The notes under the pieces were generated by a model. It worked only from the letters and a program-made list of their open reading frames with translations, did not search any database and was not told the DNA's origin. Of a DNA stretch of 64,000 bases, positions 4,272-63,811 are shown piece after piece. The stretch is from Haliclystus octoradiatus (Eukaryota > Cnidaria > Staurozoa > Stauromedusae > Haliclystidae): positions 4,615,345-4,679,344 of the forward strand of contig OU744451.1 of assembly GCA_916610825.1 (NCBI GenBank). Direction: 5' to 3'. A program made the translations under genes and the position numbers. Within the stretch, counting starts at the first letter, position 1. Each line of letters opens with the position of its first letter.

Positions 4272-6979
4272 TTATAGGAATGTGCCGTCCCTCTTACGCC
4301 TTACATATTTGCTACATAAAGAACGCCACAAAACACGGTCAGACATAGCTGACAAAGAAACTTTTAAATAACACAATTCACGATACAAAACATTATGAAA
4401 AGATACTACTCTACCATAGCCCCGTCGAAGCATCTCCTTCGGTTGCCAATGAAGGATGTCATGCAGCGGTTGAGGGGCATACGTCTTTGATCTTTCGATG
4501 TGACCTAAAAAAGACATCTGACGTTGGTGAGCAATAGCAGAGGCAGAAGGGGAAAGTTTCCTAAGTTTAGCAGTAGACAGTAAGTTGGGCCAATGTACTC
4601 CTAAAGCATGCCGAAGCATGGCGTCATAAGCTGAGTCAAGTCGGGTCAATAGTGAGGTTGATAGAACCCACGTTTCAGAAGCATATAATAGAACAGGTTC
4701 TATCGTGTGTCTGAACAGTCTTAACTTAACGTCAGTGTTGACATCGGACGCCCAGAATTTATTCAGACCTCTAATGGCTGCCCAAGCCTGGCCTCTACGT
4801 TGTGTTAGATCATCTGAAGAAGATGGAAGTACAGAACCTAGGTACTTGAACGAATCTACACGTTCTATGTCACCATTAGATGTAGCAAGGTGTGCCTGTT
4901 TTATGCCTAAAGCAATAAATTTCGTCTTAGTCGTGTTAATTGTCAAGCCTACCGTTTTACCAACCCGTTCAACTTCATCAAGAAGCTGTTGTGCTTCAGA
5001 TATGCTATTTGTTAAGATAGCAATATCGTCAACAAATGAGAGGTCCGATACGCTGCGCTCTGGATGACGTGAAGACCTACGACGATCAAGGATAAATCCG
5101 GAAGAGTCAGGACATGAAATACGAAAAACATAATCGATAAATAGTGTAAATAAAAAAGGGGACAATGTGTCACCCTGTAGTACGCCACAAGCTGTCGGGA
5201 AATCATCAGTATCACCATAGTGAGTTCTAACAAAAGCCGAAGTAGAAGAATAAAAGGACATAATAGCATCGATAAGAACAATAGGTACATTATAGAAATC
5301 TAATATTTCTGGGATTCTGCATCTTAACACAGAGTCAAAGGCCTTTTTGAAGTCAATAAAAATTGCAACAATGTCTTTTTGATGAGTCCTACAGCCTTCT
5401 AACAATATCCTAGCTGATAGAATTTGGCCTAAGGTTGACCGGCTATTCCTGCCACCATTTTGATTGTATCTTAAATATGGGTCAATTACTGACGCCAGCC
5501 TTTTATGTAGAATCTTATTATTAGCTTTTCCTGCAGTACAACTTAAAGTGATACCCCTCTGTTGGTCTAGGTTTCTAGACGTGTTCTTGTTGACGGTGAT
5601 GACAGCAGATCTTCGCCATTGACCCGGTACTTGTTGCTCCCCTGACAAAACGGCATGTATGATGGTAAGTAGCTCATTTTGTACAAGAGGTTCTCGAAGT
5701 ACCAGGGTGGGGATTCCATCTGGTCCAGGAGACGCAAGGGGTTTCATAGAAAATAGAATAGAGCATAATTCGTCATTAGTAACAGGAGAAGTATTATAAT
5801 TGGACATATCAGGAGGGGAGAAGTTAGGCGGTGGAGCTAATTTATTTAACGATAGTAGACAGGATGGGGGATTATATAAATCATAAAAATAATTACGAAT
5901 CATACTATTTGCCTCGACAGAATCATACGCTTCAATTAATAAGGGCTTGTGGGATGGGTTCTTAAGACGCCTTATCTCTTTCCATGCTATACAATGCTTA
6001 TTACTATTACTAGCCGTTTTTACCGCTAAAATTATAGCGTTTAATTCACGCTCGATTAGGGCGTTATGAGCGGCAGCGAGATCTATTGTTTTTTGATCAA
6101 CAATAGATTGTAAAAGACTGATATTGTGTATAGTAGGAGAACAATCACGTAATTGTTTTTTGGCAAGTTTCAATTCATATCTTACCTGTGTGATCATTGC
6201 GTCACTGTCCCAAGAGACGCGTGACCATTGTCTTTTCTTCCGCGGCAAAACGGTCTCGGCTGCTTTGATGATGGCTGAGGAAAGAATGGAGAAATCACCT
6301 CTTGTGGGTTGTCCAACAAGAGAATTCTCAAGACAGTCGTTAAACGCTTGTGAAAACTCTGCCAGACTTTCCCAACAAAGGGATGACCCTGCCTTTCCTT
6401 TGCAGTACCGGATGCGTTGTTTCATGCAAGAGAAAACAAGGCGATGATCAGATTGAATAGCAAATGGTGCTATAGTATCACAATCGTAAAATAAACGTGG
6501 ACAATTAGTGAGAATATAATCAAGACGTTCTTTCCGGCCTTTCGGACCAAAGAAAGTAGCACGTCTTGACAGAGGTTTACGATACAAAGAATTTAACGGA
6601 GTAAGGTCATAGATATTATTAAGATCAATTAAATAAGGGGAATTATCATTTAAATTACGTCCTACAGGGTTTAATGACAAGGGGTAACACGCATTAAAAT
6701 CACCACACAACATAATAGCATCACGGGATGGTATTTTAACTAAGATTGAAGATAACTGAGCATAGAAAAGGGAGGCCTCGATCTGTCTGACAGCAGTGGG
6801 AGAGTAAACAGAGAAAACATGTACGATACGATCAAATAATTTAACAGACAATTCTAAAATACGGGATGAATGAGACTTTACACGAACATAACGAACATCA
6901 ACACACGGATTACACATAAAACCTACACCACCAACACCATAACATTCAGCAGACGATGTAATAAATGTACATTTATTAT
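4272..6979 (-). CDS. LINE polyprotein, C-terminal part: endonuclease and reverse transcriptase
   Basis: About 900 codons of the LINE ORF downstream of the LTR-element insertion. The first third is the rest of the apurinic-type endonuclease: a CYGVGGVGF block, LCGDFNA (metal-binding Asp, Asn) and the catalytic SDHR motif. The reverse transcriptase follows with PGPDGIP, motif A AIFIDFKKAFDS, motif B GVLQGDTLSPFLF, motif C LSFVDDIAIL and thumb-region blocks FKYLGS and LLYASETW. It would nick target DNA and copy the LINE RNA by target-primed reverse transcription. All catalytic Asp residues are present and the frame is intact. It is nevertheless inactive as it stands, because the endonuclease N-terminus is separated from it by the LTR element. 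The first residues of the open frame upstream of 6979 are LTR sequence, not LINE. Confidence 0.85.
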
Positions 6980-7266
6980 TGATGAGAACTGTAGAATTGT
7001 ATTGAAGAAATAATAATAACAACGTAGGTTGAATTGATTTGTATATTTCTTCTTATGAATAATAATATTAATTCCAAGTTGACATGTTGATAGTAGACTG
7101 TACATTCAGTTCTCATAGTTTCATAGTTTTCATTTACTGTATTTATAGTGTTTAGATAAATGCTAGAAGCTGCTAGATCATGCATGGTCATTGTGAGTCA
7201 TGCGGGGAGTCATGTAGGTTCTCCTATGTTCTAGAATGTTCTAGATGGTTCAGGAAGGTTCCTACA
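6980..7266 (-). repeat. 3' LTR of the TRIM-like element
   Basis: 287 bp, TG...CA, reading on the minus strand. It carries the same nine-unit heat-shock-element array (7218-7262) and TATA box (7139-7148) as the 5' LTR. Confidence 0.9.
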
Positions 7267-7269
7267 TAA

Positions 7270-7280
7270 CTCCCCCCGCC
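7270..7280 (-). other. Polypurine tract of the TRIM-like element
   Basis: Minus-strand GGCGGGGGGAG followed by TTA and then the 3' LTR. This is the expected position and composition for the plus-strand primer of an LTR retroelement. Confidence 0.75.
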
Positions 7281-7620
7281 AGATGGCGGAGCCATAAATA
7301 AAGGTGCATGATATAGGCTAAAAATGAGAAAGATTAATGCTTTAATATATGCTAAATTGTAAATAATAAATGTATGTAAATATAAATGTAAGTAATTATG
7401 GTATAGTAGAAGAAGCTATTAATGAAGGTTTTAGATATGCTTATAGACTAATTGCATAACAGTTAATGAGAAAATTCATTACAATTTTGGTGCATACCAA
7501 TTTGTTTAATTGCTTTGGATTTCCAGAAAAAGAAATTTTCATACAAGTGTTATATTTGGTTTAATTTCAGTTTCTTCTATGAGCTTGGTAATCTTCAATG
7601 TTTCTTTTATAGTCATATTT

Positions 7621-8162
7621 TTTGCTTGTGAGTTTGATGAATTCAGTATTTTCTTGAGTTGTTGCTTATTCTTGTGTGCTTGATTAATTCAGTATTTTCT
7701 TGAGTTGTTGCTTATTCTTGTGTGTTTGATGAATTCAGTATTTTCTTGAGTTGTTGCTTATTCTTGTGTGTTTAATTTTAAACTCTGTTGTGTGTTCTAG
7801 TGTGTTTCTTAGTTCGTTTAGTATTCTTAGTGTGTTCATTGTGTTTCAATGTTCTTAGTTGAATGTTGAATGTTTCAATATTTAAAAGTTTTATGATGTT
7901 GGAATGTCCAATGTTTAGTGTTCAATATTTAAAAGTTCCAAAATGTTGGAATGTTCAATGGCTTATGTTCAGTATTTTAAAATCTTACTTTTTTAGTTCA
8001 GTCTCTTCAGTTTTGGGTAATCCAATTCCTTGTGTTCAGTTCCATTTCTTGTGTTTATTTCCATTTCTCGTGTGTAGTTCCATAGTTCCACTCTTGTGTT
8101 TATAGTTCCATTTCTTGTGTTTAGTTCCATTTCTTGTGTTTAGTTCCATTTCTTGTGTTTTC
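7621..8162. repeat. Internal tandem repeats of the TRIM-like element
   Basis: About three copies of a unit of roughly 50 bp containing GAATTCAGTATTTTCTTGAG lie at 7630-7770. A run of TTCCATTTCTTGTGTTTAG-type units lies at about 8035-8160. No frame is open across them. Such low-complexity interiors are usual in non-autonomous LTR elements. Confidence 0.7.
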
Positions 8163-8348
8163 TGCGTATTTTGATTAGTTACGTAAAATGCCATTGTTCT
8201 TCAGTGTGGAAATCAATCTAGTTATATTGTTTTGATGCCGCGGTCGTGAATAAAATGTTGTGTTCAATTCCATGTTGTAATAAAATACTTTCAGATTTTA
8301 AATTGTGTTGTAAAGTCTTGAAGATTATTCATAATTAGTTGTTATTGT

Positions 8349-8397
8349 AATTCGACGGACCAATTGATGAGTTGTTCTTATAATTCGACGGACCAAT
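8349..8397 (-). other. Primer binding site, tandemly duplicated
   Basis: The minus-strand TGGTCCGTCGAATTA (8381-8395) starts two bases from the 5' LTR edge and would pair with a tRNA 3' end finishing CGACGGACCA. A second copy of the same block, plus the first LTR bases (TTGATGAG), sits 33 bp further inside (about 8349-8381). This is a tandem duplication that includes the LTR/PBS boundary. I cannot assign the tRNA species. Confidence 0.7.
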
Positions 8398-8556
8398 TGA
8401 TGAGAACTGTAGAATTGTATTGAAGAAATAATAATAACAACGTAGGTTGAATTGATTTGTATATTTCTTCTTATGAATAATAATATTAATTCCAAGTTGA
8501 CATGTTGATAGTAGACTGTACATTCAGTTCTCATAGTTTCATAGTTTTCATTTACT

Positions 8557-8566
8557 GTATTTATAG
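8557..8566 (-). promoter_or_regulatory. TATA box in the 5' LTR
   Basis: Minus-strand CTATAAATAC, about 70 bp downstream of the heat-shock-element array. The same sequence is at 7139-7148 in the 3' LTR. Confidence 0.6.
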
Positions 8567-8635
8567 TGTTTAGATAAATGCTAGAAGCTGCTAGATCATG
8601 CATGGTCATTGTGAGTCATGCGGGGAGTCATGTAG

Positions 8636-8680
8636 GTTCTCCTATGTTCTAGAATGTTCTAGATGGTTCAGGAAGGTTCC
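8636..8680 (-). promoter_or_regulatory. Heat-shock element array at the start of the LTR
   Basis: Read on the minus strand, 45 bases form nine contiguous 5-bp units alternating nGAAn and nTTCn. Seven of nine match exactly and the two others keep the phase. The best core is AGAACATTCTAGAAC, a perfect three-unit heat-shock element. HSF trimers bind such alternating pentamers. The copy in the other LTR is at 7218-7262. That the array makes transcription heat-inducible is inference. Confidence 0.75.
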
Positions 8681-8688
8681 TACATTAT

Positions 8689-9167
8689 CTAAATCAACAT
8701 AACGAATAGGTTCATCGTGGATAATACGATGTTCCTGAACAGCAACAAACAAAAAATTTAACTTACGTGTGAGTGTAGCTAACTCTTTCTGTCGCCACGG
8801 ACACTTCAGGGTTCTGGAGTTGAACGTAGCAATACGATTAGGCGTAGAGGGTCTTTTCGCTGAAGGAGATAATGTGCTATCTCCATTTGGAACTCGATTG
8901 CGAGATCGCAGTTCTGATCCAATAAAACTTGAAGCATTCGGTTTGTGACGATTTCTGTTTCTATTACGATGTTCGGAGTTACGCTTTCTTCTTGCAGCAA
9001 GTGCTTTCTGAGAACGGAAACCTCGTCGACAAAACCTTGGCTTAAGTTTTAATTGGGGAGGTGGAATGATGGTAATTTTATGGCTACCGCAGCAACTAAT
9101 AAAAGTGCGCGTAAAGGCCAATAAAACTTCAAACAGAAACCGCGCGCCGAAACACGTCCGTTCTTGA
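8689..9167 (-). CDS. LINE polyprotein, N-terminal part, cut off by the LTR element
   Basis: About 160 codons. A basic Arg/Asn-rich leader (RKRNSEHRNRNRNRHK) is followed by the start of the endonuclease: IATFNSRTLK and the conserved VAVQEHR, whose Glu is a metal ligand. The frame runs into the LTR element just after YVDLDN and resumes at 6979 with KCTFI. No ATG lies inside the element; the nearest upstream one (9223) is beyond the 13-bp target duplication. It belongs to the same ORF as 4272-6979. Confidence 0.8.
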
Positions 9168-9180
9168 TGGTGCCACACCT

Positions 9181-10121
9181 GGCCGGCTATATATTGTGAG
9201 ACACCGTTATGCAGAAGCTGCACCGAAGGTATGAAGAATAATTATACTCTGAACACACTGTATATTTACATTATTGAATATTATTGTATTGAATATTATT
9301 ATCATTATTGTTTCTCATTTATAAAAAAACATTTTAATAATCTCAAATATCAGAATTTGTTATTGATGTGTTGACTATGTCGACGATCGTTACAGCGAAA
9401 AACATTCAATCTATGAATGGTGAATACTGAATAGAGTCAATGTTCATCTACACTTTTCTTGTCATATGTTATGACAATATTCCAGGACAGTGTAAAATAT
9501 GGTGATAATGAGAAGTGTTGGAGTCACATTCTTTGTATACAGTTTGATAATGGCTAATGGTAGGACTGATCAAGCCAAAGTTTATGATGGAAACTATGAA
9601 TTGATATGCATGTCATGATATGGTTATTATGATGATTTCTAAACTTCTACCAGGTCATCTTATCAATTGATGAAAGAAATGCGCCATTTCCAATTGAATT
9701 CTGGCATTTAAGCGATTTCTTTTTAACAGTTATATTTGACAAAATGTAAAACGACTTGAGAGGTGGTCTGTAAATGATAGTGTCTGAGAAACAAGAAATG
9801 TAAAAGAGAATTGGAAGAGGATGGTGTCTATATCGCAGGGCTTTTTTCATAAACCTTGACTTAATACTATTGATTTGAATTTTATGGAGGGCTTTGAAAA
9901 ATGGATCTATGATTTGAATACCATAACAACTAAGTGGTGCAATCTTCATGTCAAATATTTAAAACTCAACTTTGAAGGATGAAGATGTTGTAAAACATTT
10001 ATTGATATTGATGCTACTGATGATACTTTTTATTTGAATGTGTTTATGAAATGATAGAGATATCTGAAGCGTTACCCCTAGGTAGGTCTATATTCTTTAA
10101 CATGATCCTTTTGTTTCTTAT
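9181..10121. other. Intergenic DNA, nothing recognised
   Basis: AT-rich, with an ATTATT-rich patch at about 9270-9310. The largest open frame (9647-9949, minus) has no family resemblance that I recognise. Confidence 0.4.
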
Positions 10122-11313: not shown

Positions 11314-13671
11314 TATACTGAATATACTGATACATTTTGTATTAGTGACTGTTGTTAAGCAATTTATTCACCCATAGCAGGGTAGAAGGTAGAAGATTGT
11401 GGTGTCGTCAACACATGATGCCATTTTTATAATAATTAAAATCAAGTCTATACGTAGTCAATTATATCCCCCATACTATGTAATGTAAATGTAACGCTTG
11501 TGATAATTCCCATTAGAGTCAAATGAGTTTTGGATGATTAATTTAAGTGAATGTCAAATATATTTGAGTCTTGATCGGAGCATATAGAAACGTCTAATCT
11601 ATGTCTCAATCCTACGTAACAAAGATCTCCTTTACAAGATCAGCAGTACTATAATCCGATTTGCATTCTTTGCACATGCAATTTGGACATTGTGTATGAT
11701 GTATTTTATTCGTAAATATTTTATGATTGGAAGCCAGGTACGGAAATTCCTGCTATCATCAACACTCAGGTTTCTTCCACAACATACGGCTAGCCATTTG
11801 TGAATTCAAAAACCTTCTCCTATAGTAGCGTTTGAATTTCCGACGAAAATAATAGTTTTTAACAGGTGTTAATACATCACTTTGGGATTGGTAAACCAAA
11901 GCTGATAATAATGTTGATGACTGAGTGAGGAAAGTATAACATTGAAGTTGATGTAAACTTTGTTACTTTTAAAATAGTCGTTTCCTGAATCGAACTTTTT
12001 GTTGGTTTGATATATACATTGGACAACATAATATTACACATCCAAATATATTATATAAATAACATAAGAATCATATAAATTTATCAAAAACTCTCTCAAA
12101 CAGGCTCTAAAACTTTACAAACACTTGGTAGTCTCATGTTTCTGTCTGGGCTCCCTGTAACACATCTCATTGGATCACAGGGAAATCAGACAGAATCATT
12201 ACATAATATAGCAGGTGGCATCCAAGTTATTATGTGTTACTTTCGAGGAAGTGGAGTTATTATGAAATTGAATGCATAAGTGAGCATTAGAATGATTTTC
12301 GTTGAGAATATTGACATGAAAATATCATATGAAATAGTACAGCTCGTGTCGAAGTTTTTATAATTCAGTTCATTATTACAGCTCGTTGGATTTTGGATAT
12401 TGCCAAAACAAAGTCATTTATAAAAAATAAGATTTTAAATATAAAAGGCTAAATGTGATCTACATCTTAATAAAGTTCACTTCAATGATGAATATACTGA
12501 ATATACTGATACATTTTGTATTAGTGACTGTTGTTAAGCAATTTATTCACCCATAGCAGGGTAGAAGGTAGAAGATTGTGGTGTCGTCAACACATGATGC
12601 CATTTTTATAATAATTAAAATCAAGTCTATACGTAGTCAATTATATCCCCCATACTATGTAATGTAAATGTAACGCTTGTGATAATTCCCATTAGAGTCA
12701 AATGAGTTTTGGATGATTAATTTAAGTGAATGTCAAATATATTTGAGTCTTGATCGGAGCATATAGAAACGTCTAATCTATGTCTCAATCCTACGTAACA
12801 AAGATCTCCTTTACAAGATCAGCAGTACTATAATCCGATTTGCATTCTTTGCACATGCAATTTGGACATTGTGTATGATGTATTTTATTCGTAAATATTT
12901 TATGATTGGAAGCCAGGTACGGAAATTCCTGCTATCATCAACACTCAGGTTTCTTCCACAACATACGGCTAGCCATTTGTGAATTCAAAAACCTTCTCCT
13001 ATAGTAGCGTTTGAATTTCCGACGAAAATAATAGTTTTTAACAGGTGTTAATACATCACTTTGGGATTGGTAAACCAAAGCTGATAATAATGTTGATGAC
13101 TGAGTGAGGAAAGTATAACATTGAAGTTGATGTAAACTTTGTTACTTTTAAAATAGTCGTTTCCTGAATCGAACTTTTTGTTGGTTTGATATATACATTG
13201 GACAACATAATATTACACATCCAAATATATTATATAAATAACATAAGAATCATATAAATTTATCAAAAACTCTCTCAAACAGGCTCTAAAACTTTACAAA
13301 CACTTGGTAGTCTCATGTTTCTGTCTGGGCTCCCTGTAACACATCTCATTGGATCACAGGGAAATCAGACAGAATCATTACATAATATAGCAGGTGGCAT
13401 CCAAGTTATTATGTGTTACTTTCGAGGAAGTGGAGTTATTATGAAATTGAATGCATAAGTGAGCATTAGAATGATTTTCGTTGAGAATATTGACATGAAA
13501 ATATCATATGAAATAGTACAGCTCGTGTCGAAGTTTTTATAATTCAGTTCATTATTACAGCTCGTTGGATTTTGGATATTGCCAAAACAAAGTCATTTAT
13601 AAAAAATAAGATTTTAAATATAAAAGGCTAAATGTGATCTACATCTTAATAAAGTTCACTTCAATGATGAA
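11314..13671. repeat. Tandem duplication, two 1,179-bp units
   Basis: Copy 1 is about 11314-12492 and copy 2 about 12493-13671; anchor words are offset by exactly 1,179 bases throughout (for example CCCATAGCAGGG at 11371 and 12550). I saw no differences on reading both copies. Neither contains a recognisable gene. Each has a long hairpin (12140-12195 and 13319-13374). Copy 2 ends about 160 bp beyond the stop codon of gene A. The near identity points to a recent event or an assembly artefact. Confidence 0.92.
12140..12195. repeat. Hairpin inside the duplicated segment
   Basis: Arms of 19 bases (12140-12158 and 12177-12195) pair at 16 of 19 positions, TTCTGTCTGGG.. against ..TCAGACAGAA, with an 18-base loop. 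The same structure recurs at 13319-13374 in the second unit. Confidence 0.6.
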
Positions 13672-13765
13672 TATAATAAAAATATTCAAATCAATATGCT
13701 TTACAAGTTACTAAAGTTAACTACAAAGATGAAAAAACAAGTTCTACATCCTCAGTCAATAACAT

Positions 13766-13831: not shown

Positions 13832-15397
13832 TTAAGCAGTTAATTTCAACGACGAGAAAACAAAGTCTGCATCATCTGATGTCGTATCATAACACAAGAA
13901 ATCTTCATAACCATCATGATTAAAATCACCAGTTATAGCTGCCCACGATATTAGTGGGGCGTGACATATATTCAAGCAGTTAGCAATTGTAGGAGGAGCA
14001 ACAGCAGCACCATAATCCCCAGAACCATCATTTGGGAAGACAGTTGCTGAAACAGTGCCTGCTCCTGGTGTATAGCAAATAAGATCTTTATCTCCATCTC
14101 CATCAATATCTGAGAAAAACAACCTTTGTAATAATAAATCACAAACTATATCAGCATCACGAGATCCCGATGAAAATATATTTCCGGTTGTTCGTCCATT
14201 TCCAAAATACATGATCCAACCATCTGTACCTGTATCAATACACAATATATCATCGATGTCATCGTTGTTCATGTCAAGTATCTGAATTGATGATATTGGA
14301 GGACCACGAACACGAACAGAAATACATGCTATACCAATATGACTTGCAGTGGAAGACGATATCATTCCAGCTCCACATGTACCTTGTTGAAAGCTAGACG
14401 CACTGTGTGCATATGGACCACGTGCGTGTTGGCTTTTGTATCGCATTTGATGGATTCTGGAATGTGGACCAGGCATGAAATGATGACCATGAGATAAGGG
14501 AACAGGATTCAAGTGGAACGGTTGCACTGGTAGGTGATGATGAACAACTTCTGGTTGAGCATGGACAACGGGAAATGGGTGACTAATCATCTCTGGTTGA
14601 GGATGCATAACTACTTCAGGATGAGGAGGTGCAACTGGATATGCAACATTGTGGGGCAGAGGATATGGGGCTGCATGATGGCCATGATAAATTTCTGGTT
14701 GAGGATGCATAACTACTTCAGGATGAGGAGGTGCAACTGGATATGCAACATAATGGGGTTTATTATATGGTTCAGTATACCTTGATGCATGATATCCTTG
14801 GTAGGGGCTTCTATGACGCGATCTGTAACTTTGAGGATATGGATAATGGCCATCAGATTGAGAGGCATCACAACTAAAGAAAAAAAACATTGTTTGTGCT
14901 ACAGTTGGATCGTCTTCATCCAAGCAAAGGATATCATCTCCAGCTTTCCCGTCGAAATTTCCAATGTGAATATCTTTGGTACATGTGTAACCAACTGCGA
15001 TATTGGTTTCAGATGTAAATTGACCATCATTGTTAAACATGACAGAGAATTTTCCAGTGGAACTTTGGCATAGAATGTCATCTTTGTGATCGCCATTAAT
15101 GTCAGCAACGTGGATGCTACCAGCCATACAAAATGATGTTGAAGCAATCGTAGTTGTTGTTTTTGGATATTCCCCATTCGTGTAACCATATGCCACCCTC
15201 AGCCCGGAGGTACCATCGTGAATAAGAACCGCTGGTTGGTGGCCATCGACATTGATTGAATGTAGTACAGTAGGAGCAACAATTAGGAAGGTTTTATCAG
15301 TTGCAAGACCTAACCCGCAATATTCACGATCATCTGCGCATTTTGTAATTGAAAACAATGAAAGTATACAAATGAATTGATTTATGACAGGTGACAT
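13832..15397 (-). CDS. Secreted FG-GAP/VCBS-repeat protein with His/Pro-rich linker (gene A)
   Basis: 521 residues from the ATG at 15397. I chose this start because it matches the paralogue at 39191 and because a splice acceptor lies 14 bases upstream; the longer open frame begins inside the presumed intron. Residues 1-20 are a signal peptide. Calcium-loop repeats follow, each closing with Cys: DINGDHKDDILC (99-110) and NFDGKAGDDILC (147-158). A His/Pro/Tyr-rich linker of about 180 residues comes next, with a 34-residue internal duplication. Then come DMNNDDIDDILC, DIDGDGDKDLIC and DFNHDGYEDFLC (ends near 502). FG-GAP/VCBS units build beta-propellers in integrin alpha chains and many secreted proteins; the Asp-rich loops bind calcium. 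No membrane anchor is seen, so it is probably extracellular. Ligand and role are unknown. The coding part has no intron. Confidence 0.85.
   Translation of the reverse strand: MSPVINQFICILSLFSITKCADDREYCGLGLATDKTFLIVAPTVLHSINVDGHQPAVLIHDGTSGLRVAYGYTNGEYPKTTTTIASTSFCMAGSIHVADINGDHKDDILCQSSTGKFSVMFNNDGQFTSETNIAVGYTCTKDIHIGNFDGKAGDDILCLDEDDPTVAQTMFFFFSCDASQSDGHYPYPQSYRSRHRSPYQGYHASRYTEPYNKPHYVAYPVAPPHPEVVMHPQPEIYHGHHAAPYPLPHNVAYPVAPPHPEVVMHPQPEMISHPFPVVHAQPEVVHHHLPVQPFHLNPVPLSHGHHFMPGPHSRIHQMRYKSQHARGPYAHSASSFQQGTCGAGMISSSTASHIGIACISVRVRGPPISSIQILDMNNDDIDDILCIDTGTDGWIMYFGNGRTTGNIFSSGSRDADIVCDLLLQRLFFSDIDGDGDKDLICYTPGAGTVSATVFPNDGSGDYGAAVAPPTIANCLNICHAPLISWAAITGDFNHDGYEDFLCYDTTSDDADFVFSSLKLTA
14593..14796 (-). 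repeat. 102-bp in-frame tandem duplication in gene A
   Basis: The block encoding VAYPVAPPHPEVVMHPQPE occurs twice, with CTGGTTGAGGATGCATAA starting at 14593 and at 14695. The 102-base period is a multiple of three, so the linker grew by 34 residues without breaking the frame. Paralogue C has a different linker sequence. Confidence 0.85.
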
Positions 15398-15410
15398 GAT
15401 TCTGAGCGAT

Positions 15411-15432
15411 GCTGCAAAAAGATAAACAAAGT
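15411..15432 (-). promoter_or_regulatory. 3' splice acceptor before the gene A start codon
   Basis: On the minus strand a pyrimidine-rich stretch ending TTTTTGCAG is followed by 14 bases and then the ATG. Gene B has the same arrangement at 39206-39226 and gene C a similar one at 57657-57674. It implies a non-coding first exon or a trans-spliced leader. Confidence 0.7.
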
Positions 15433-15442
15433 ACCTCAACAT

Positions 15443-17795: not shown

Positions 17796-18144
17796 AGGTC
17801 AAAATGTATTCTGATATTTATTTGACGAACCTCATGTCGTAGGAAAAATGTCATGAAGAGTATCAATGAGAATAACAAACGGGAAAAAACGTATAAGGTA
17901 TATCTGAAGAAATGATGATGATGATTGTGACAACTTTCAGATGAATTTCTGATATAGCTATTGAAATTAATGAACTTGTGGATGACGCTCAATTACAGTT
18001 ACTATGACGCTTGCGTCATATGTCTAAAAATTAAATCCATACAAGAACCGATATTTCCCGTTTGTTATTCTCATTGATACTTTTCATGAAATTTCTCCTA
18101 CGACATGAGGTTCGTCAAATAAATATCAGAATACATTTTGACCT
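17796..18144. repeat. Inverted repeat with 91-bp arms
   Basis: The left arm 17796-17886 (AGGTCAAAATGTATTCTGAT...) and right arm 18054-18144 are nearly perfect reverse complements around a 167-bp spacer. No frame is present. It is adjacent to the larger foldback and may be part of the same composite insertion into the gene A upstream region. Confidence 0.85.
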
Positions 18145-37699: not shown

Positions 37700-39191
37700 T
37701 TAATTAGTTAACTTCAACGATGAGAAAACGAAATCTGCATCATCAGATGCCGTATCATAACACAAGAAATCTTCATACCCATCATGATTAAAATCACCAG
37801 TTATAGCTGCCCACGATGCTAGTGGGGCTTGACATATATTCAAGCAGATACCTATAGGAACAACTTCGGTACCATATTCCCCTGTGCCATCATTTGGCAT
37901 AACACTTGCAAAGACAGTGCCATCTTCTGGTATATAGCAAATGAGATCTTTATCTCCATCTCCATCAACATCTGCAGAAAATAGCTTTTCATCAAATAAA
38001 TCACAAAATATATCAGTATCAGCTGATCCCGATGAAAATATATTTCCTGTTGTTCGTCCATTTCCAAAAAACTTGATCCCATCAACTGTACCATCGTCAA
38101 CACACAATATATCATCGATGCCATCGTTGTTCATGTCAAGTACTTGAAGTTCTGAAGCCAGATCATAAGGGCATGCTGTGGCAATATCAGCTGCAGAAAG
38201 AGATGACATCGTTCCAGCTCCACACGTTCCTTGTTGAAAGCTAGAAGCACTGTATGCATATGGACCAATCATGTAATGTCTTTGGCTAGAGAAAAAAACA
38301 GGATTCAGGTGAAATGCATGTACTTGTAAATGATAAGGAACAACCTCCGGGCGAGAATGAACAAAAATCAATGGCTGACCCATAAATTCTGGTTGGTGAT
38401 GCATAACTATTTCAGGATATAGATGTGCAACTGGATATATATAGGATTGTAGGGCAGATGATGGGGCCACATGATGAATTTGAAAAGTTTATGGGTGAGG
38501 TGCAATGTAACCTGTTACATGCTTTATGAATATTGTTCGAAGGGTGGTAAATTCCATTATATGGTTCAGTATACCTTGCTGTGTGAGATCTTTGGTAGTT
38601 GATTGAATGATGTGATCCATGACTTTCAGGATATGGATAATGGCCACCATATTGAGAGGCATCACAACTAAAGAAGAAAAACATCGTTGGTGCTACAGTG
38701 TTATCTATACCATCCAAGCAGAGGATATCATCTCCGGCTTTTCCGTCAAAATTTCCAATGTAAACATCTTTGGTACATGTGTAACCAACTGCGATCATTG
38801 TTTCCGATGAAAATTGACCATCATTGTTAAACATGACAGAAAATTTTCCAGTAGAACTTTGGCATACAATGTCATCTTTGTGATCGCCATTGATGTCAGC
38901 AACATGGATGCTACCAGCAGTACAAAACGATGTTGAAGCAATTTTAGTTGTTGTTTTGGGATATTCCCCATTCGTATAACCATATGCCACCCTCAGCCCA
39001 GAGGTACCATCGTGAATTAGGATACCTTGATGGTGGCCATCGATATTGATTGCATGTAATTTAATAGGAGCTACATTTAGGAAGTTTTGATCGGTTGCAA
39101 TACCAAACCTGCAATATTCACGATCGTCTGCGCATTTTGTAAATGAAAACAATGAAAGTATAAAAATGAATTGATTTATGCCAGGTGACAT
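37700..39191 (-). pseudogene. Secreted FG-GAP/VCBS-repeat protein, broken copy (gene B)
   Basis: Paralogue of gene A. The N-terminal frame (39191 to about 38530) gives the same signal peptide style (MSPGINQFIFILSLFSFTKC), the DREYC block, and repeats DINGDHKDDIVC and NFDGKAGDDILC. Near 38530, inside the His/Pro linker, the frame slips and an in-frame stop (TAA, near 38495) follows. The C-terminal frame (about 38470-37700) continues with DMNNDGIDDILC, DVDGDGDKDLIC and DFNHDGYEDFLC and ends DADFVFSSLKLTN. Both halves are well conserved, so the break is recent, or a short intron or sequencing error mimics it. The linker is shorter than in A. A splice acceptor precedes the ATG at 39206. Confidence 0.75.
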
Positions 39192-56146: not shown

Positions 56147-57652
56147 TTAACCAGCAACCAACTTCAAAGAAGAAAACACAAAATCAGCATCTGCAGCACC
56201 AGGTCCATAACAAAGATAATCGTCTTTACCATCTCCATTAAAATCATCAACAACTATATCTTGAGCAGGCATTGCACAAACTACTGGACAATTTGTATTG
56301 GTAGGTGGTGTAGGATCAGGTGTGAACCCACCAGAACCATCATTAAAATGCACGAGGGTTGCTAAACCGTTGGTTACAGGATTCACTGCACAGACCAAAT
56401 CCATATCACCATCACCATCTGCATCAGCTGCGAACAGATGATTTGCAGTTAAATCACATGGGATATTAGTATCATCTACTCCTGCTGCAAATATTGTACC
56501 AGTGTTTCGTCCATTGGAGTAAAATTTAACCGCACTATCAACATCATTGGCTGTAACACATAATATATCATCGATATGATCGTTATTTAGGTCCGTGATC
56601 TGTATAGACGTTCCAGCAGCTAAAGGGCATGTAGCATGTATATCCGAGGCTGGAAAGGAATACGTCATCCCTGCACCACATGAACTTTGTTGCTGTAAGC
56701 TGCTACTTGTGTAAGCATATGGACCTGACCCAAAATGTCTTCTTAAACGATGATGGTGATGATGGATGCGAGATATTGGACCAGGTAGATATACTGGTTG
56801 GGGATGACCGTGGAATAAGTGATCCTGGTGAGTATGAAACGGATCAACTGGAAGGCCATGGTTAGGTAGGTACGGTTGAGGATGGGGTTGGTAATTAGGA
56901 AACGGATGGGAGTTAATCGCTTGATGCGAGATAGTCTCTGGATGGGGATGACTACCATGAATTGGATATTGAATATTACTAGGTAGAGGAAACGGTGCAG
57001 CATGATGGTTTTGGTAGTTTAAGGGATGATGGGTATCGTATCCTACTCCATGGTGAACTGAATTCGAATATTGGCTATTATGTCCATGTTGATATCCGTA
57101 ATAGGTACTAGAAGATGTGCCATAGCAACTGAAGAAGGAAAACATAGTAGGTGCCACAGTGTTATCAGCTGGATCCAAGCATAAGATGTCTTCTCCAGCT
57201 TTTCCATCAAAATTACCAAAATATACATCATGTGTGCAAATATATCCAATTGCAATACTTGTCTCACTGGAAAATTGTCCATTGTTGTTGTTAAACATAA
57301 CTGAGAATTTTCCAGTTGCGTCTTTGCAGACAATATCATCGTTATGATCACCACTTATATCAGCAGTATATATGGTACCACCATTACAGAACGAAATTGG
57401 TGCAATTGTTGTCGATGTTTTCGGAAATTCACCATTTTGATAGCCAGAAGCTAATGATAATCCCGATGCACCATCACTAATGAGAAGAGCTGGCTCATGG
57501 CTACTACGGTGAAGTGCCATAACATTCATCACAGTTGCTGAGAGAAAAGTGTCAGTCACTCTGGTAAATCCACAGTATTCGCGATCATTGGCACTTTGAA
57601 TCATAATCACTGCACTACACAGTAACATCAATAATTTGAGAAACAATCCCAT
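56147..57652 (-). CDS. Secreted FG-GAP/VCBS-repeat protein with His/Pro-rich linker (gene C)
   Basis: 501 residues from the ATG at 57652. I preferred this start to the longer open frame because a splice acceptor lies 4 bases upstream. Residues 1-24 are a signal peptide (MGLFLKLLMLLCSAVIMIQS). Then the family block NDREYCGF, repeats DISGDHNDDIVC and NFDGKAGEDILCLD, and a His/Pro/Tyr-rich linker with GYQHGHNSQYS and long HPHPE/HPFPNYQPHPQP stretches and an HHHHHRLRRH basic patch. Then come DLNNDHIDDILC, DADGDGDMDLVC and DFNGDGKDDYLCYG, ending DADFVFSSLKLVAG. Each Ca loop is DxNxDxxDD-like and closes with Cys, as in genes A and B. No transmembrane segment follows. It is intact and single-exon in its coding part. 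Function is unknown; an extracellular, calcium-dependent structural or binding role is inference. Confidence 0.85.
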   Translation of the reverse strand: MGLFLKLLMLLCSAVIMIQSANDREYCGFTRVTDTFLSATVMNVMALHRSSHEPALLISDGASGLSLASGYQNGEFPKTSTTIAPISFCNGGTIYTADISGDHNDDIVCKDATGKFSVMFNNNNGQFSSETSIAIGYICTHDVYFGNFDGKAGEDILCLDPADNTVAPTMFSFFSCYGTSSSTYYGYQHGHNSQYSNSVHHGVGYDTHHPLNYQNHHAAPFPLPSNIQYPIHGSHPHPETISHQAINSHPFPNYQPHPQPYLPNHGLPVDPFHTHQDHLFHGHPQPVYLPGPISRIHHHHHRLRRHFGSGPYAYTSSSLQQQSSCGAGMTYSFPASDIHATCPLAAGTSIQITDLNNDHIDDILCVTANDVDSAVKFYSNGRNTGTIFAAGVDDTNIPCDLTANHLFAADADGDGDMDLVCAVNPVTNGLATLVHFNDGSGGFTPDPTPPTNTNCPVVCAMPAQDIVVDDFNGDGKDDYLCYGPGAADADFVFSSLKLVAG

Positions 57653-57656
57653 GACC

Positions 57657-57674
57657 CTGAAGGAGAAAACATTG
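57657..57674 (-). promoter_or_regulatory. 3' splice acceptor before the gene C start codon
   Basis: Minus-strand TGTTTTCTCCTTCAG followed by GGTC and ATG. If spliced in cis, the intron contains the adjacent (AAT)n tract. Confidence 0.65.
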
Positions 57675-57686
57675 AAATATGTAAAT

Positions 57687-58372
<686 letters not shown>

Positions 58373-58689: not shown

Positions 58690-60331
58690 TTATGTTTTTG
58701 ATTTATTAAAATTGGACAGGTAATATTTATTTTCGTGACGACATTTAGATATTAATTCAGTTTTTTTGTTTATTATTGGTTCTTTTGCGCATATAATATG
58801 ATATTTTTCTAAGAGGCATAAATGGCATTTTTTCGAGATGTTGTTGTATGCTTTTGCATTAGCGATGGCTGACCATTCGATTTTGTATGTGATGTTTTTG
58901 TCTTTTAAATCCCAAACGTGTTTGGATAGTTGTGTGCTAGTGTTGTATTTTCTGTGTTTAAGTGTTGCCTTGTGTTGCGTGTAGCGTTGTTTGAACGTGC
59001 CTTCCGTCAACCCAATGTAGCTCTGTCCTTCTTGGTCAAATGGAGTAGTGACGTTTGCTTTATAGATAATACTTTTCATTTGGCATTTGTTGTTGAAAGG
59101 GCATAAGTTTTTGTATCTACAGTTGCATTGGTTGGTGTTAGTTGTGGTGTTTGTTGTCGAATTGATTATTTTATTGTTATGGCTCTTTAGGATTGAATTC
59201 ATGTTATTTGTGCAACTATAGCTGACTTTGATTGTGTTAAGATTGAAAATCTTGTTTAATTTGTTCGATTTCGGGAAGTGTTTTTTTATTAAGTTAAGGA
59301 ACGTACGACCGATGTTAGTTTTCACGCTCTTGTTGTAGGGTGGATTGAACCATATGGCTTTTCTTGATCGGCATTTTCTATTGTTGTTTAATGTTGTTTC
59401 TCGTGGATTGTATATTAGGTGCGTATCGTGTCCGCTTTTTCTCAAAGCGTCAGCGTATGGTTCTTTACTGTTCTCGAATATTGTGGAGTTAGTGGATAAA
59501 TCAGATAGTCTTTGATTAATAGCTGTTGGTATTTGTTTTAGTATATTTGGCGGGTGGTTGGAGTTGATGTTAATGTATAATGGTTGGTCGTTAGGCTTTC
59601 GATATGGCTGGTATGTGTCAGTGTTCAAGTTAAATGTTAGGTCTAAGAAGTCAATTACCTTTAAGTTTGATTTTGTCGTTATATTTAGTCCAATGTCTTT
59701 GAATTGTTTGATTATTTTCTTTCGGAGTCTTTCTGCCTGTGTGCCTGATTTATTCTTCAGGATTGCGATACCGTCGTCTCTGTAGAGCCCTACGTTCCCG
59801 TTCCCGAAAATGTTGCTTATTTTTTGTAAGATGAATAATCCGACCAGTTCACACACCTCAGCGCCGTCATAGCTGCCCATTGTGACATCAAATAGGCTGT
59901 TGCTGTTCTTTTTCACCCATACTGAGTCGTTATTAAATAGTACTGATTTCCTGGAGTGCATTATGATTTTTTCGTCTATTTCGGAAATTTGTGTGAGGTT
60001 TCTCGCAAAATTTATAGATTCTTTGAGGAGTTTTTCGGATATAGAAGGGTAAAAATTTTCTATATCGAAAACTAGAAAAGATAATTTGTGTTTGTCTTTT
60101 AAATTTTCAAACCATTTGATTACGGAGAAAGAATTTTTCCATTGGTTGGCATTTGATTTTGATTTGATGTCGATTACAATTTTTTCGATTATTTTTTTGC
60201 TTACAATTCCGACCTCACTTTTTGCAGGGTTAATTAGTCGGCAGGTAGGGTTATGTTGAAAGTTGTCCTTATGGTCTTTGATGGTGATAAAAGCCTTTTG
60301 CTGGGCGATTCTCTCCGTTCGCTTGTCAATC
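58690..60331 (-). CDS. Penelope-like reverse transcriptase/GIY-YIG protein, 5'-truncated (minus copy)
   Basis: About 546 codons without an initiator, open from the palindrome centre to the stop at 58690; an internal Met at 59961 is not the true start. Domains in order: RT fingers (ERIAQQKAFITIKDHK, CRLINPAKSEVG); motif A FLVFDIENFYPSI; motif B GSYDGAEVCELVGLFIL; motif C LYRDDGIAIL (YRDD, not YVDD); the post-catalytic DFLDLTFNLNT region; a Cys cluster CNCRYKNLCPFNNKC; then GIY-YIG (IIYKANVTTP, SYIGLTEGTFKQRYTQH) and a final CHLCLLEKYHIICA block. The RT copies element RNA and the nuclease nicks target DNA. All key RT Asp residues are present. It looks identical to the plus copy. It cannot be complete because the N-terminus is missing. 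Confidence 0.85.
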
Positions 60332-62035
60332 AGTCAATCAGCTACAGTGAACAAGATCAACAGAGAGGCAAAAGAGATTACGAAAGAACTAAGGATTGAC
60401 AAGCGAACGGAGAGAATCGCCCAGCAAAAGGCTTTTATCACCATCAAAGACCATAAGGACAACTTTCAACATAACCCTACCTGCCGACTAATTAACCCTG
60501 CAAAAAGTGAGGTCGGAATTGTAAGCAAAAAAATAATCGAAAAAATTGTAATCGACATCAAATCAAAATCAAATGCCAACCAATGGAAAAATTCTTTCTC
60601 CGTAATCAAATGGTTTGAAAATTTAAAAGACAAACACAAATTATCTTTTCTAGTTTTCGATATAGAAAATTTTTACCCTTCTATATCCGAAAAACTCCTC
60701 AAAGAATCTATAAATTTCGCGAGAAACCTCACACAAATTTCCGAAATAGACGAAAAAATCATAATGCACTCCAGGAAATCAGTACTATTTAATAACGACT
60801 CAGTATGGGTGAAAAAGAACAGCAACAGCCTATTTGATGTCACTATGGGCAGCTATGACGGCGCTGAGGTGTGTGAACTGGTCGGATTATTCATCTTACA
60901 AAAAATAAGCAACATTTTCGGGAACGGGAACGTAGGGCTCTACAGAGACGACGGTATCGCAATCCTGAAGAATAAATCAGGCACACAGGCAGAAAGACTC
61001 CGAAAGAAAATAATCAAACAATTCAAAGACATTGGACTAAATATAACGACAAAATCAAACTTAAAGGTAATTGACTTCTTAGACCTAACATTTAACTTGA
61101 ACACTGACACATACCAGCCATATCGAAAGCCTAACGACCAACCATTATACATTAACATCAACTCCAACCACCCGCCAAATATACTAAAACAAATACCAAC
61201 AGCTATTAATCAAAGACTATCTGATTTATCCACTAACTCCACAATATTCGAGAACAGTAAAGAACCATACGCTGACGCTTTGAGAAAAAGCGGACACGAT
61301 ACGCACCTAATATACAATCCACGAGAAACAACATTAAACAACAATAGAAAATGCCGATCAAGAAAAGCCATATGGTTCAATCCACCCTACAACAAGAGCG
61401 TGAAAACTAACATCGGTCGTACGTTCCTTAACTTAATAAAAAAACACTTCCCGAAATCGAACAAATTAAACAAGATTTTCAATCTTAACACAATCAAAGT
61501 CAGCTATAGTTGCACAAATAACATGAATTCAATCCTAAAGAGCCATAACAATAAAATAATCAATTCGACAACAAACACCACAACTAACACCAACCAATGC
61601 AACTGTAGATACAAAAACTTATGCCCTTTCAACAACAAATGCCAAATGAAAAGTATTATCTATAAAGCAAACGTCACTACTCCATTTGACCAAGAAGGAC
61701 AGAGCTACATTGGGTTGACGGAAGGCACGTTCAAACAACGCTACACGCAACACAAGGCAACACTTAAACACAGAAAATACAACACTAGCACACAACTATC
61801 CAAACACGTTTGGGATTTAAAAGACAAAAACATCACATACAAAATCGAATGGTCAGCCATCGCTAATGCAAAAGCATACAACAACATCTCGAAAAAATGC
61901 CATTTATGCCTCTTAGAAAAATATCATATTATATGCGCAAAAGAACCAATAATAAACAAAAAAACTGAATTAATATCTAAATGTCGTCACGAAAATAAAT
62001 ATTACCTGTCCAATTTTAATAAATCAAAAACATAA
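60332..62035 (+). CDS. Penelope-like reverse transcriptase/GIY-YIG protein, 5'-truncated (plus copy)
   Basis: Same protein as the minus copy, extended at its start by about 20 codons from the palindrome centre (VNKINREAKEITKELRID). The open frame technically begins at 60263, but its first 23 residues are antisense sequence of the other arm and not part of the gene. The 568-codon frame, stop included, is intact to the stop at 62035, followed by a 3' UTR of about 210 bp with a hammerhead-like motif. A truncated 5' end and inverted pairing are common for PLE insertions. Confidence 0.85.
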   Translation, partial: SQSATVNKINREAKEITKELRIDKRTERIAQQKAFITIKDHKDNFQHNPTCRLINPAKSEVGIVSKKIIEKIVIDIKSKSNANQWKNSFSVIKWFENLKDKHKLSFLVFDIENFYPSISEKLLKESINFARNLTQISEIDEKIIMHSRKSVLFNNDSVWVKKNSNSLFDVTMGSYDGAEVCELVGLFILQKISNIFGNGNVGLYRDDGIAILKNKSGTQAERLRKKIIKQFKDIGLNITTKSNLKVIDFLDLTFNLNTDTYQPYRKPNDQPLYININSNHPPNILKQIPTAINQRLSDLSTNSTIFENSKEPYADALRKSGHDTHLIYNPRETTLNNNRKCRSRKAIWFNPPYNKSVKTNIGRTFLNLIKKHFPKSNKLNKIFNLNTIKVSYSCTNNMNSILKSHNNKIINSTTNTTTNTNQCNCRYKNLCPFNNKCQMKSIIYKANVTTPFDQEGQSYIGLTEGTFKQRYTQHKATLKHRKYNTSTQLSKHVWDLKDKNITYKIEWSAIANAKAYNNISKKCHLCLLEKYHIICAKEPIINKKTELISKCRHENKYYLSNFNKSKT

Positions 62036-62202
62036 TAAATAATCATTTACTGAGAATAAAGGAAACCATCACATTTTTCTACCACTTGTATTAACAATAG
62101 CAATAACAATAGCATTGTATTAATTAAACAATAGAAAGCAGCATTACGGAGAGTTTATCATAGAACGTAGATATCATGTATATTTTTCATTGAGTAAAAA
62201 AT

Positions 62203-62245
62203 CTGTCTGAAGATCGCTGTGAAAAGCGTGAAACTTGAGTAACAG
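62203..62245 (+). ncRNA. Hammerhead-ribozyme-like motif in the plus PLE copy
   Basis: Core CTGAAGA (62207-62213), stem II CGC/GCG (62215-62217 with 62226-62228), GAAAC (62230-62234), stem III AC/GT with loop TTGA, cleavage base A (62241), stem I CTGT/ACAG (62203-62206 with 62242-62245). It lies about 170 bases after the PLE stop codon. Confidence 0.68.
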
Positions 62246-62276
62246 TAAAGAATGTGTATTCTTTGACTCTTTCGCC

Positions 62277-62286
62277 ATATATTATT

Positions 62287-62331
<45 letters not shown>
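62277..62331. repeat. (ATT/AAT)n tract between PLE copies
   Basis: About 55 bp of AT-trinucleotide repeat between the 3' end of the palindromic PLE and the 5' truncation point of the next PLE. Confidence 0.85.
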
Positions 62332-62347
62332 TAAATAATTAACAAAA

Positions 62348-63811
62348 GTCAACCAATGGAAAAACTCATACGCCGTTATAGATTGGTTTAAGGCACTAGA
62401 AGAAAAGAAACGATTATCGTTCATCACCTTTGACATCGAAAGCTTTTACCCCACGATATCGGAGCAACTATTAGAAAAAGCTATATCATTTGCAAAAAAC
62501 TTTACAACAATATCGGAAAGTGATACAAAAATTATCATGCACGCAAGGCAATCAGTTCTATTTAATAAAGGAGCCGCATGGTCAAAGAAAAGCCACACAA
62601 ACCTGTTCGACGTCACAATGGGCAGTTATGACGGAGCAGAGATTTGCGAATTGGTAGGTTTATTTATACTAGATAAACTTACGAAAGTTCTGGGTGACAA
62701 CTCTATTGGACTTTACCGAGATGATGGTTTGGCAGTAATGCGAAAAAAATCCGGCCCACAGACTGAGAGATTCAGGAAAAAAATAACAAACATTTTCAAA
62801 GAGATGGGATTAAAAATTACATCAAAAACCAACCTCAAATCAGTAGACTTCTTAGACATAACCTTCGACCTAAACAATGGCACATTCCAGCCCTACAGAA
62901 AAACTAACGACCAACCTATATATATAGACACTAATTCTAATCATCCACCTACAATTCTAAAACATATACCTATAGCAATTAACCAAAGACTCTCCGATTT
63001 ATCATCTAATAACACTATTTATGAAAACAGCAAAAATACTTACGAAGACGCCTTAACAGCGAGTGGCCATACTACTACTAATTTAAAACACGAACCAAGG
63101 CCAGCAACATCAAGCCGTAGAAAAGGGAAAAGGAGGAGAAATGTCACATGGTTTAACCCACCGTTCAGCAAAAGTGTGAAAAGCAACATTGGCCGAACAT
63201 TCCTCAACCTAGTCAAAAAGCACTTTCCGAAGACAAGCAAGCTACATAAGATTTTCAATCAAAACACGCTAAAAGTAAGTTACAGTTGTACTTCCAATAT
63301 GAAAACAATCATTACTAACCACAACAAGAATTTAACAAATACAGAAATGGAAGTAACAGAAAATGCGCAATTATGCAACTGCCGCACAAAGGAAAATTGT
63401 CCATTAAACAATAGATGCCTTATGGAAGGATTAATCTACAACGCCAAAGTGACTACCCCGGAAGACCAAGAGGGTAAAAATTACATCGGTCTAACGGAAA
63501 ACTCTTTCAAGACACGCTACACACAGCACACAAGCACATTCCGGCATGATAAACATACACACAACACGCAACTATCAAAATATATTTGGGAACAGAAGGA
63601 CAAAGCAACCGACTACAACATCGAATGGACAGCTCTATCGAGAGCAAAGCCATACAATAATATAACGAAAAGATGCCAGCTATGCCTGGCAGAAAAATAT
63701 CATATCATTTGTTCCAAAAAAGCATTACTTAACAAAAGATCTGAGTTAATTTCAAAATGTAGGCACGAGAATAAATTTTACTTTACTAATTATAAATCGA
63801 CTAAAACATAA
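62348..63811 (+). CDS. Penelope-like reverse transcriptase/GIY-YIG protein, related family, 5'-truncated
   Basis: About 487 codons, intact to the stop at 63811 but lacking the RT N-terminus and any initiator; the frame is already open at 62348 (VNQWKNSYAVIDWF) and the first Met is 62537. It is collinear with the palindromic copies but diverged throughout: motif A FITFDIESFYPTI, motif B GSYDGAEICELVGLFIL, motif C LYRDDGLAVM, Cys cluster CNCRTKENCPLNNRC, GIY-YIG LIYNAKVTTP and NYIGLTENSFKTRYTQH, and a final CQLCLAEKYHIICS block. RT and nuclease residues look intact. It sits directly downstream of the plus copy in the same orientation. Its 3' UTR runs into a hammerhead-like motif at the window edge. 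Confidence 0.85.
   Translation, partial: VNQWKNSYAVIDWFKALEEKKRLSFITFDIESFYPTISEQLLEKAISFAKNFTTISESDTKIIMHARQSVLFNKGAAWSKKSHTNLFDVTMGSYDGAEICELVGLFILDKLTKVLGDNSIGLYRDDGLAVMRKKSGPQTERFRKKITNIFKEMGLKITSKTNLKSVDFLDITFDLNNGTFQPYRKTNDQPIYIDTNSNHPPTILKHIPIAINQRLSDLSSNNTIYENSKNTYEDALTASGHTTTNLKHEPRPATSSRRKGKRRRNVTWFNPPFSKSVKSNIGRTFLNLVKKHFPKTSKLHKIFNQNTLKVSYSCTSNMKTIITNHNKNLTNTEMEVTENAQLCNCRTKENCPLNNRCLMEGLIYNAKVTTPEDQEGKNYIGLTENSFKTRYTQHTSTFRHDKHTHNTQLSKYIWEQKDKATDYNIEWTALSRAKPYNNITKRCQLCLAEKYHIICSKKALLNKRSELISKCRHENKFYFTNYKSTKT

Follow-up and report, generated by a model that had tools for sequence, protein, structure and literature searches.

Several mobile elements are already known to use, or possibly to use, heat-shock elements (HSEs), namely ONSEN, copia, Helitrons, DIRS-1 and TCN3/TCN12. 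ONSEN (COPIA78) of Arabidopsis is an autonomous Ty1/copia element whose LTR is bound by HSFA2 (PMC3907296; PMC5059998); its heat response has been tested, and the reference genome contains eight full-length copies (PMC3907296). Among Brassicaceae LTRs, predicted 3P HREs go with up to hundred-fold induction and predicted 4P HREs with up to thousand-fold induction (PMC5059998). The promoter of Drosophila copia carries a heat-shock consensus (as cited in PMC3907296); copia is transcribed without heat, shows a weaker rise and is without at least three further nGAAn copies (PMC3907296). Caenorhabditis Helitrons are DNA transposons that spread repeated HSEs and add them near genes, and these HSEs are bound by HSF-1 on heat shock (PMC6927752); cooperative binding of C. 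elegans HSF-1 was found at most HSEs tested (PMC9148306). In Dictyostelium, the terminal repeats of the retroelement DIRS-1 contain a heat-shock promoter (PMC2685390). The Cryptococcus LTR elements TCN3 and TCN12 are mobile at 37 °C and have one or two putative LTR HSEs, TCN3 with a gag-pol frame (PMC12810828).

Non-coding, multicopy elements with two terminal direct repeats have been described in animals as biv-TRIM (bivalve, PMC6934838), ta-TRIM (taeniid, PMC4558846) and PbTRIM (ant, PMC3532108). By the definition quoted in PMC6934838, a TRIM has LTRs of 100-250 bp and a total length below 1000 bp. The term "heat shock" is absent from the main text of the ta-TRIM paper, and among the results listed by searches of open-licence literature, no title or abstract opening mentioned an HSE array in a non-autonomous LTR element of an animal.

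The window (the whole stretch of 64,000 nucleotides analysed here, C7:4615345-4679344 of the 262 Mb in 33 contigs covered by the genome searches) contains a complete, non-coding LTR retrotransposon of 1705 bp at positions 6980-8684 on the minus strand. Self-comparison of the window revealed an identical 290-bp repeat (6978-7267 and 8396-8685), which was trimmed, via TG...CA ends and a TTAT target-site duplication (6976-6979 and 8685-8688), to a 5′ LTR at 8398-8684 and a 3′ LTR at 6980-7266, both on the minus strand, each of 287 bp and 100% identical to one another; other copies of the element support the same ends. LTR composition is 32% G+C with two CpGs. In minus-strand sense, the element consists of LTR, PBS-like TGGTCCGTCGAATT, a 1131-bp interior, purine-rich GCGGGGGGAGTTA and LTR. 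The PBS-like sequence (8382-8395, minus strand), a putative primer site, lies 2 bases past the 5′ LTR, and the purine tract GCGGGGGGAG lies ahead of the 3′ LTR (7270-7279, minus strand). The internal domain (7267-8397, minus strand) contains tandem repeats with spacings of 46, 47 and 19 bp, and its longest stop-to-stop frames are 54 aa in sense and 80 aa in antisense; no long ORF is present in the element, and with it the copia-type gag-pol characteristic of ONSEN/COPIA78 is absent. Comparison of the element with Rfam RNAs (e.g. hammerhead) gave three weak matches only, all far below gathering scores. The two LTRs, the 4-bp duplication, the purine tract and the lack of a long ORF bear out an earlier note on this DNA in treating the element as a non-autonomous LTR element, here a retrotransposon that lacks coding capacity. 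The label TRIM used there fits in that last respect and fails on size, the 287-bp LTRs and the total of 1705 bp exceeding the limits quoted in PMC6934838.

The PBS-like site falls within a 33-nt unit that occurs twice at window 8334-8399. This unit takes in letters of the LTR end and is repeated in tandem, with 1 to 7 units counted in the elements compared (e.g. L069, L072 and L084), so that elements differ in their number of primer-like sites.

The element sits inside a LINE, ORF pieces of which are found on both flanks. The downstream part of the split LINE (4272-6979, minus strand) contains a reverse transcriptase ORF (PF00078, E 1.1e-29), and the upstream part (8689-9223, minus strand) was recognized from an ORF piece and from LINE copies. 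Seven LINE copies were compared, and all but L002 show the empty site: in the other six (L003-L008) the joined 120-bp flank was continuous and gapless, with 119 or 120 of 120 bases identical. LINE copies at C1:1357301, 1370545 and 1383789 are spaced by 13,244 bp, twice, and element copies at C2:33971457 and 33984711 lie 13,254 bp apart; these regular spacings suggest segmental tandem duplications. Elsewhere in the window, an exact tandem duplication at 11314-13675 (unit 1179 bp, copies identical over 1183 bp) is either recent or an assembly effect. Related ORFs with His/Pro-rich inserts at 13832-15442, 37700-39191 and 56147-57724 encode probable secreted FG-GAP-repeat proteins, the first being confirmed by Pfam. 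Reverse transcriptase ORFs at 58690-63811 presumably represent a Penelope-like reverse transcriptase with a GIY-YIG-like tail; the ORF at 60263-62035 is partly repeated, on the other strand, at 58690-59961 and had no Pfam match at E 0.001.

Inspection of the 5′ LTR reveals a nine-unit HSE array at LTR bases 5-49 (8636-8680, minus strand), which LTR identity repeats at 7218-7262 (minus strand) in the 3′ LTR. Read in element sense, its pentamers are GGAAC CTTCC TGAAC CATCT AGAAC ATTCT AGAAC ATAGG AGAAC, with GAA and TTC alternating in phase, seven of the nine units exact, and units 4 and 8 degenerate. The array comprises two perfect three-unit HSEs split by one degenerate unit, together with one exact unit past the second degenerate unit, and the longest unbroken exact run is three units, twice per LTR (3P, not 7P or 9P). 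The nine contiguous in-phase pentamers reported by the earlier note were recovered at exactly those coordinates; its statement that the arrays open both LTRs applies to both, though on the minus strand only and with the array beginning at base 5, after TGTA. A TATAAA box at LTR base 120 (8560-8565, minus strand, its surrounding 30-mer being matched across the genome; 7142-7147, minus strand, in the 3′ LTR) starts 71 bases beyond the last base of the array (base 49), close to the spacing of about 70 bp given before. Between the two lies TGACTCA (LTR bases 67-73; 8612-8618, minus strand), which we take to be an AP-1-like site. At least three adjacent alternating nGAAn units stand ahead of the TATA box, and the spacing and position of the array are those expected of an HSF-driven promoter, the appearance the earlier note had ascribed to it.

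The array exceeded shuffled controls, a comparison that the earlier note had proposed. Its seven exact units compare with a best score of 4 in 5000 dinucleotide shuffles of the LTR (score 1 in 1501 shuffles, 2 in 3160, 3 in 333 and 4 in 6), and 5000 shuffles of the array 47-mer scored 3 at most. Perfect three-unit HSEs, of which each LTR has two, occurred at a mean of 0.002 per shuffled LTR. The window as a whole contains five, all in the LTRs but for one at 18082, and no site in the window outside the two LTR arrays scored above 4. Across the genome, the six-unit pattern GAANNTTCNNGAANNTTCNNGAANNTTC, which is its own reverse complement and hence yields identical sites on both strands, was found at 663 sites with up to one mismatch, compared with a single site for the reversed control. 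Chance or low-complexity repetition, which the AT-rich LTR and its partly repeated 10-mer AGAACATTCT might have suggested, is refuted as a full account by the shuffles, none of which exceeded four units, and by these genome counts; the probability left to it is close to negligible.

The array is a property of the LTR family. A 35-base array pattern matched 405 genome sites and the 30-mer around the TATA box matched 322, both with up to three mismatches and with no match to either reversed control. Complete elements with their own flanks accounted for 17 of the 19 LTR pairs compared, and two L070 entries, parts of a tandem copy, had duplications of 1 and 0 bp. All 17 complete elements show a 4-bp target duplication, a putative PBS (a TGG-start site 2 bases past the LTR) and the polypurine tract GCGGGGGGAGTTA ahead of the 3′ LTR. 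The LTR pair was identical in 15 of the 17, L076 having a 5-bp length difference and L087 one mismatch, in a set drawn from the best matches that overstates youth. Interior length ranged from 1096 to 1296 bp in the 16 complete copies without a nested insert. The 4.9-kb LTR pair L069 was considered as an autonomous partner and rejected, as it proved to be another copy of the non-coding element, enlarged by an insert of ∼3.2 kb, and the longest among the stop-to-stop frames listed was 115 aa.

Retention of the array in other copies, on which the earlier note had made its reading depend, was assessed in 73 LTR instances, a set of BLAST rows that begin at LTR base 5 or earlier and extend to base 100 or beyond. 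Seven exact units were present in 51 instances, six in 17, five in four and four in one, such that six or seven were kept in 68 of the 73; the loss of pentamer phase that would have spoken against the note's reading is not what these copies show. A further comparison of genomic copies covered matches of about 200 bases or more that lay within their locus. Because best-match lists supplied most of the copies, young ones are over-represented, and L119, L120 and L121, having been found via the HSE pattern, favour intact arrays. Among 20 unpaired LTRs (the first 20 of 24 sites chosen by exact TATA 30-mer), the first 52 bp were unchanged in nine and had at least one change in nine, and the alignments of L099 and L105 begin only at base 18 or 16.

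Within the 73 instances, the core GAA/TTC letters were not better kept than the linkers and neighbouring bases (Fisher p = 0.91). Substitutions per cell were 24/1533 (0.0157) in the core, 31/1752 (0.0177) in the other array letters and 68/4666 (0.0146) in bases 50-113, and in the 18 LTR instances below 95% identity the comparison was 9/378 for the core against 58/1584 for the rest (p = 0.27). Because core letters change as often as their neighbours, the likeness of the copies reflects youth, and selection is unsupported. Nor did the array outlive the TATA region: in the part of the genome spanned by the listed sites of both patterns, 22 of 94 exact arrays were without a nearby exact TATA 30-mer and 27 of 99 exact TATA 30-mers were without a nearby exact array. 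Such a pattern of substitution and loss would be expected if copies from a recent wave had decayed neutrally, and it neither refutes nor proves that the array acted as a promoter when the copies were made.

The absence of excess conservation in the core letters and the similar decay of the array and TATA region are in keeping with an array that is a genuine HSE consensus but an ancestral feature copied along, the heat promoter being defunct and the copies silenced or run by other LTR sites, such as the AP-1-like TGACTCA and the TATA box. We regard this as unlikely. The copies examined are young and their LTR pairs mostly identical, which implies that the source copies had an intact array when last transcribed. 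Diverged relatives (the L036 neighbour, L116 and L120, the last biased by its selection through the HSE pattern) also retain four or five exact units.

HSE-like arrays are carried by a second mobile family as well. Of 21 exact six-unit sites listed, 19 are of GTTCATGAAC type as judged by the match letters, the surroundings being read at L089 and L121 only, where GTTCATGAAC repeats reach eight of nine HSE units. The exact site at C8:13584248 (L119) is a relative of the LTR array, and that at C1:34197552 belongs to neither type. L090 (C1:3742200-3745800), found from one-mismatch sites, has inverted ends CCTGCGAAA/TTTCGCAGG with GTTCATGAAC repeats near both and no ORF of at least 100 aa in the inverted-repeat stretch; its family is probably a fold-back DNA transposon unrelated to the LTR element, and its arrays are more likely subterminal repeats of the transposase type. 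In the 362 kb analysed, a set selected with these families in mind, no array of six or more units lay outside the two mobile families. As the HSE-like arrays of L090 illustrate, HSF binding does not follow from the pattern by itself.

The GAA/TTC repeats of the LTR might by the same token serve another DNA-binding protein, or a structural or integration role, with their HSE likeness incidental. The HSE-consensus arrays of the second family, whose subterminal GTTCATGAAC repeats are probably such a feature, lend this some support, as do the first 54 bp of the LTR, which have inverted ends (TGTAGG at the start and CCTACA at the end) and are found alone at L114 and L118 within the 241 bases inspected at each. 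Integrase normally needs no more than the terminal 10-20 bp of an LTR, and nothing in its end requirements explains why units should alternate strictly every 5 bp for 45 bp ahead of a TATA box. An incidental likeness is accordingly judged improbable.

The LTR match is restricted to bases 1-54 and 1-56 at L114 and L118. If the right edge of this TGTAGG-array-CCTACA stretch mimicked a U3 end, integrase could insert such two-U3-ended fragments alone, with 4-bp duplications, and the first 54 bp would be mobile as a unit that seeds the genome with bare heat-shock enhancers. We consider this very doubtful, because L118, although flanked by TGTG on both sides, adjoins a TG repeat and the first two of its right-hand letters are also LTR letters, and because the flanks of L114 (CAAA/CAAT) differ by one mismatch. 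Empty sites were not found for either locus, the flanks matching nothing else among the 42 and 43 matches listed, array matches apart. Deletion inside old LTRs could also leave array-only loci. Other sites that such mobility might account for are the listed array pairs C2:16526497/16526566, 69 bp apart, and C5:4003921/4004225, in opposite orientation, and L071, where the 3′ LTR continues into an inverted LTR fragment whose last letters are CCTACA, although no clean 4-bp duplication is present. The C9 contig (11,294 bp) contains this element copy with the inverted LTR piece at its 3′ end and shows a 9023-bp periodicity (all 800 bases compared are identical), as a circular molecule, a tandem array or an assembly effect would. 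An rDNA or coding identity for this contig was rejected, as 10,000 of its 11,294 bases gave no Rfam match at gathering score and no listed frame of at least 110 aa.

The host genome contains matches to the heat-shock machinery. HSF DNA-binding domains gave three matches, a number that fits an animal better than a land plant; two are nearly full-length, and the third is partial and contains a stop. Three HSP70 matches each lie in a single open frame of 640-641 aa (intronless). Two of the latter are arranged head to head (C1:31760307-31762118 and 31762626-31764437), with their domain matches ∼0.5 kb apart. The exact six-unit pattern at C1:34197552 lies ∼15 kb from the HSF DNA-binding-domain match at C1:34181946.

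These observations are best explained, with a probability of roughly two in three as judged from sequence, by a young family of non-autonomous LTR retrotransposons whose LTR is a predicted HSF-type promoter. HSF-driven transcription is predicted because of the in-phase array, the position of the TATA box, the presence of the array across the copies examined, and the genomic matches to HSF and hsp70. When heat or protein damage stresses the cell, HSF trimers would cooperatively occupy the array, and bound HSF would drive transcription by RNA polymerase II from the LTR TATA box. The LTR RNA would then be primed by a tRNA at the PBS-like site, and be copied and integrated, with 4-bp duplications, by the proteins of an autonomous partner. 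Solo LTRs could confer heat-responsiveness on their neighbours.

Like ONSEN, the family is young, carries nGAAn units clustered in its LTR and has a predicted coupling to the host heat response. In contrast to ONSEN, the element is non-coding, has several hundred LTR sites and has a predicted heat promoter; its array occupies the very 5′ end of the LTR and is longer (nine units) but composed of strict runs of three. A heat-shock consensus in the promoter is shared with copia, an LTR element of an animal, the LTR here having seven exact units. The spreading of repeated HSEs is shared with the Caenorhabditis Helitrons, to which the L090 family is nearer, the HSEs here being placed in an LTR promoter. 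DIRS-1 differs in its inverted terminal repeats and tyrosine recombinase, TCN3 and TCN12 in being fungal with fewer putative HSEs, and the animal TRIMs in their defined size. As far as the literature search shows, what is new is the combination: a non-coding, young LTR family of several hundred sites, probably in an animal, whose LTR opens with a nine-unit array.

If heat activates the LTR, one recent wave of a gene-less parasite would have left hundreds of similar heat-responsive promoters in this genome, which is probably that of an animal. Because a non-autonomous element needs the proteins of a partner, its induction must coincide with that of the partner. The family would carry the ONSEN principle over to non-autonomous elements, would make it simple to ask whether a mobile element benefits from coupling its transcription to stress, and would offer a test of whether solo LTRs draw neighbouring genes into the heat response.
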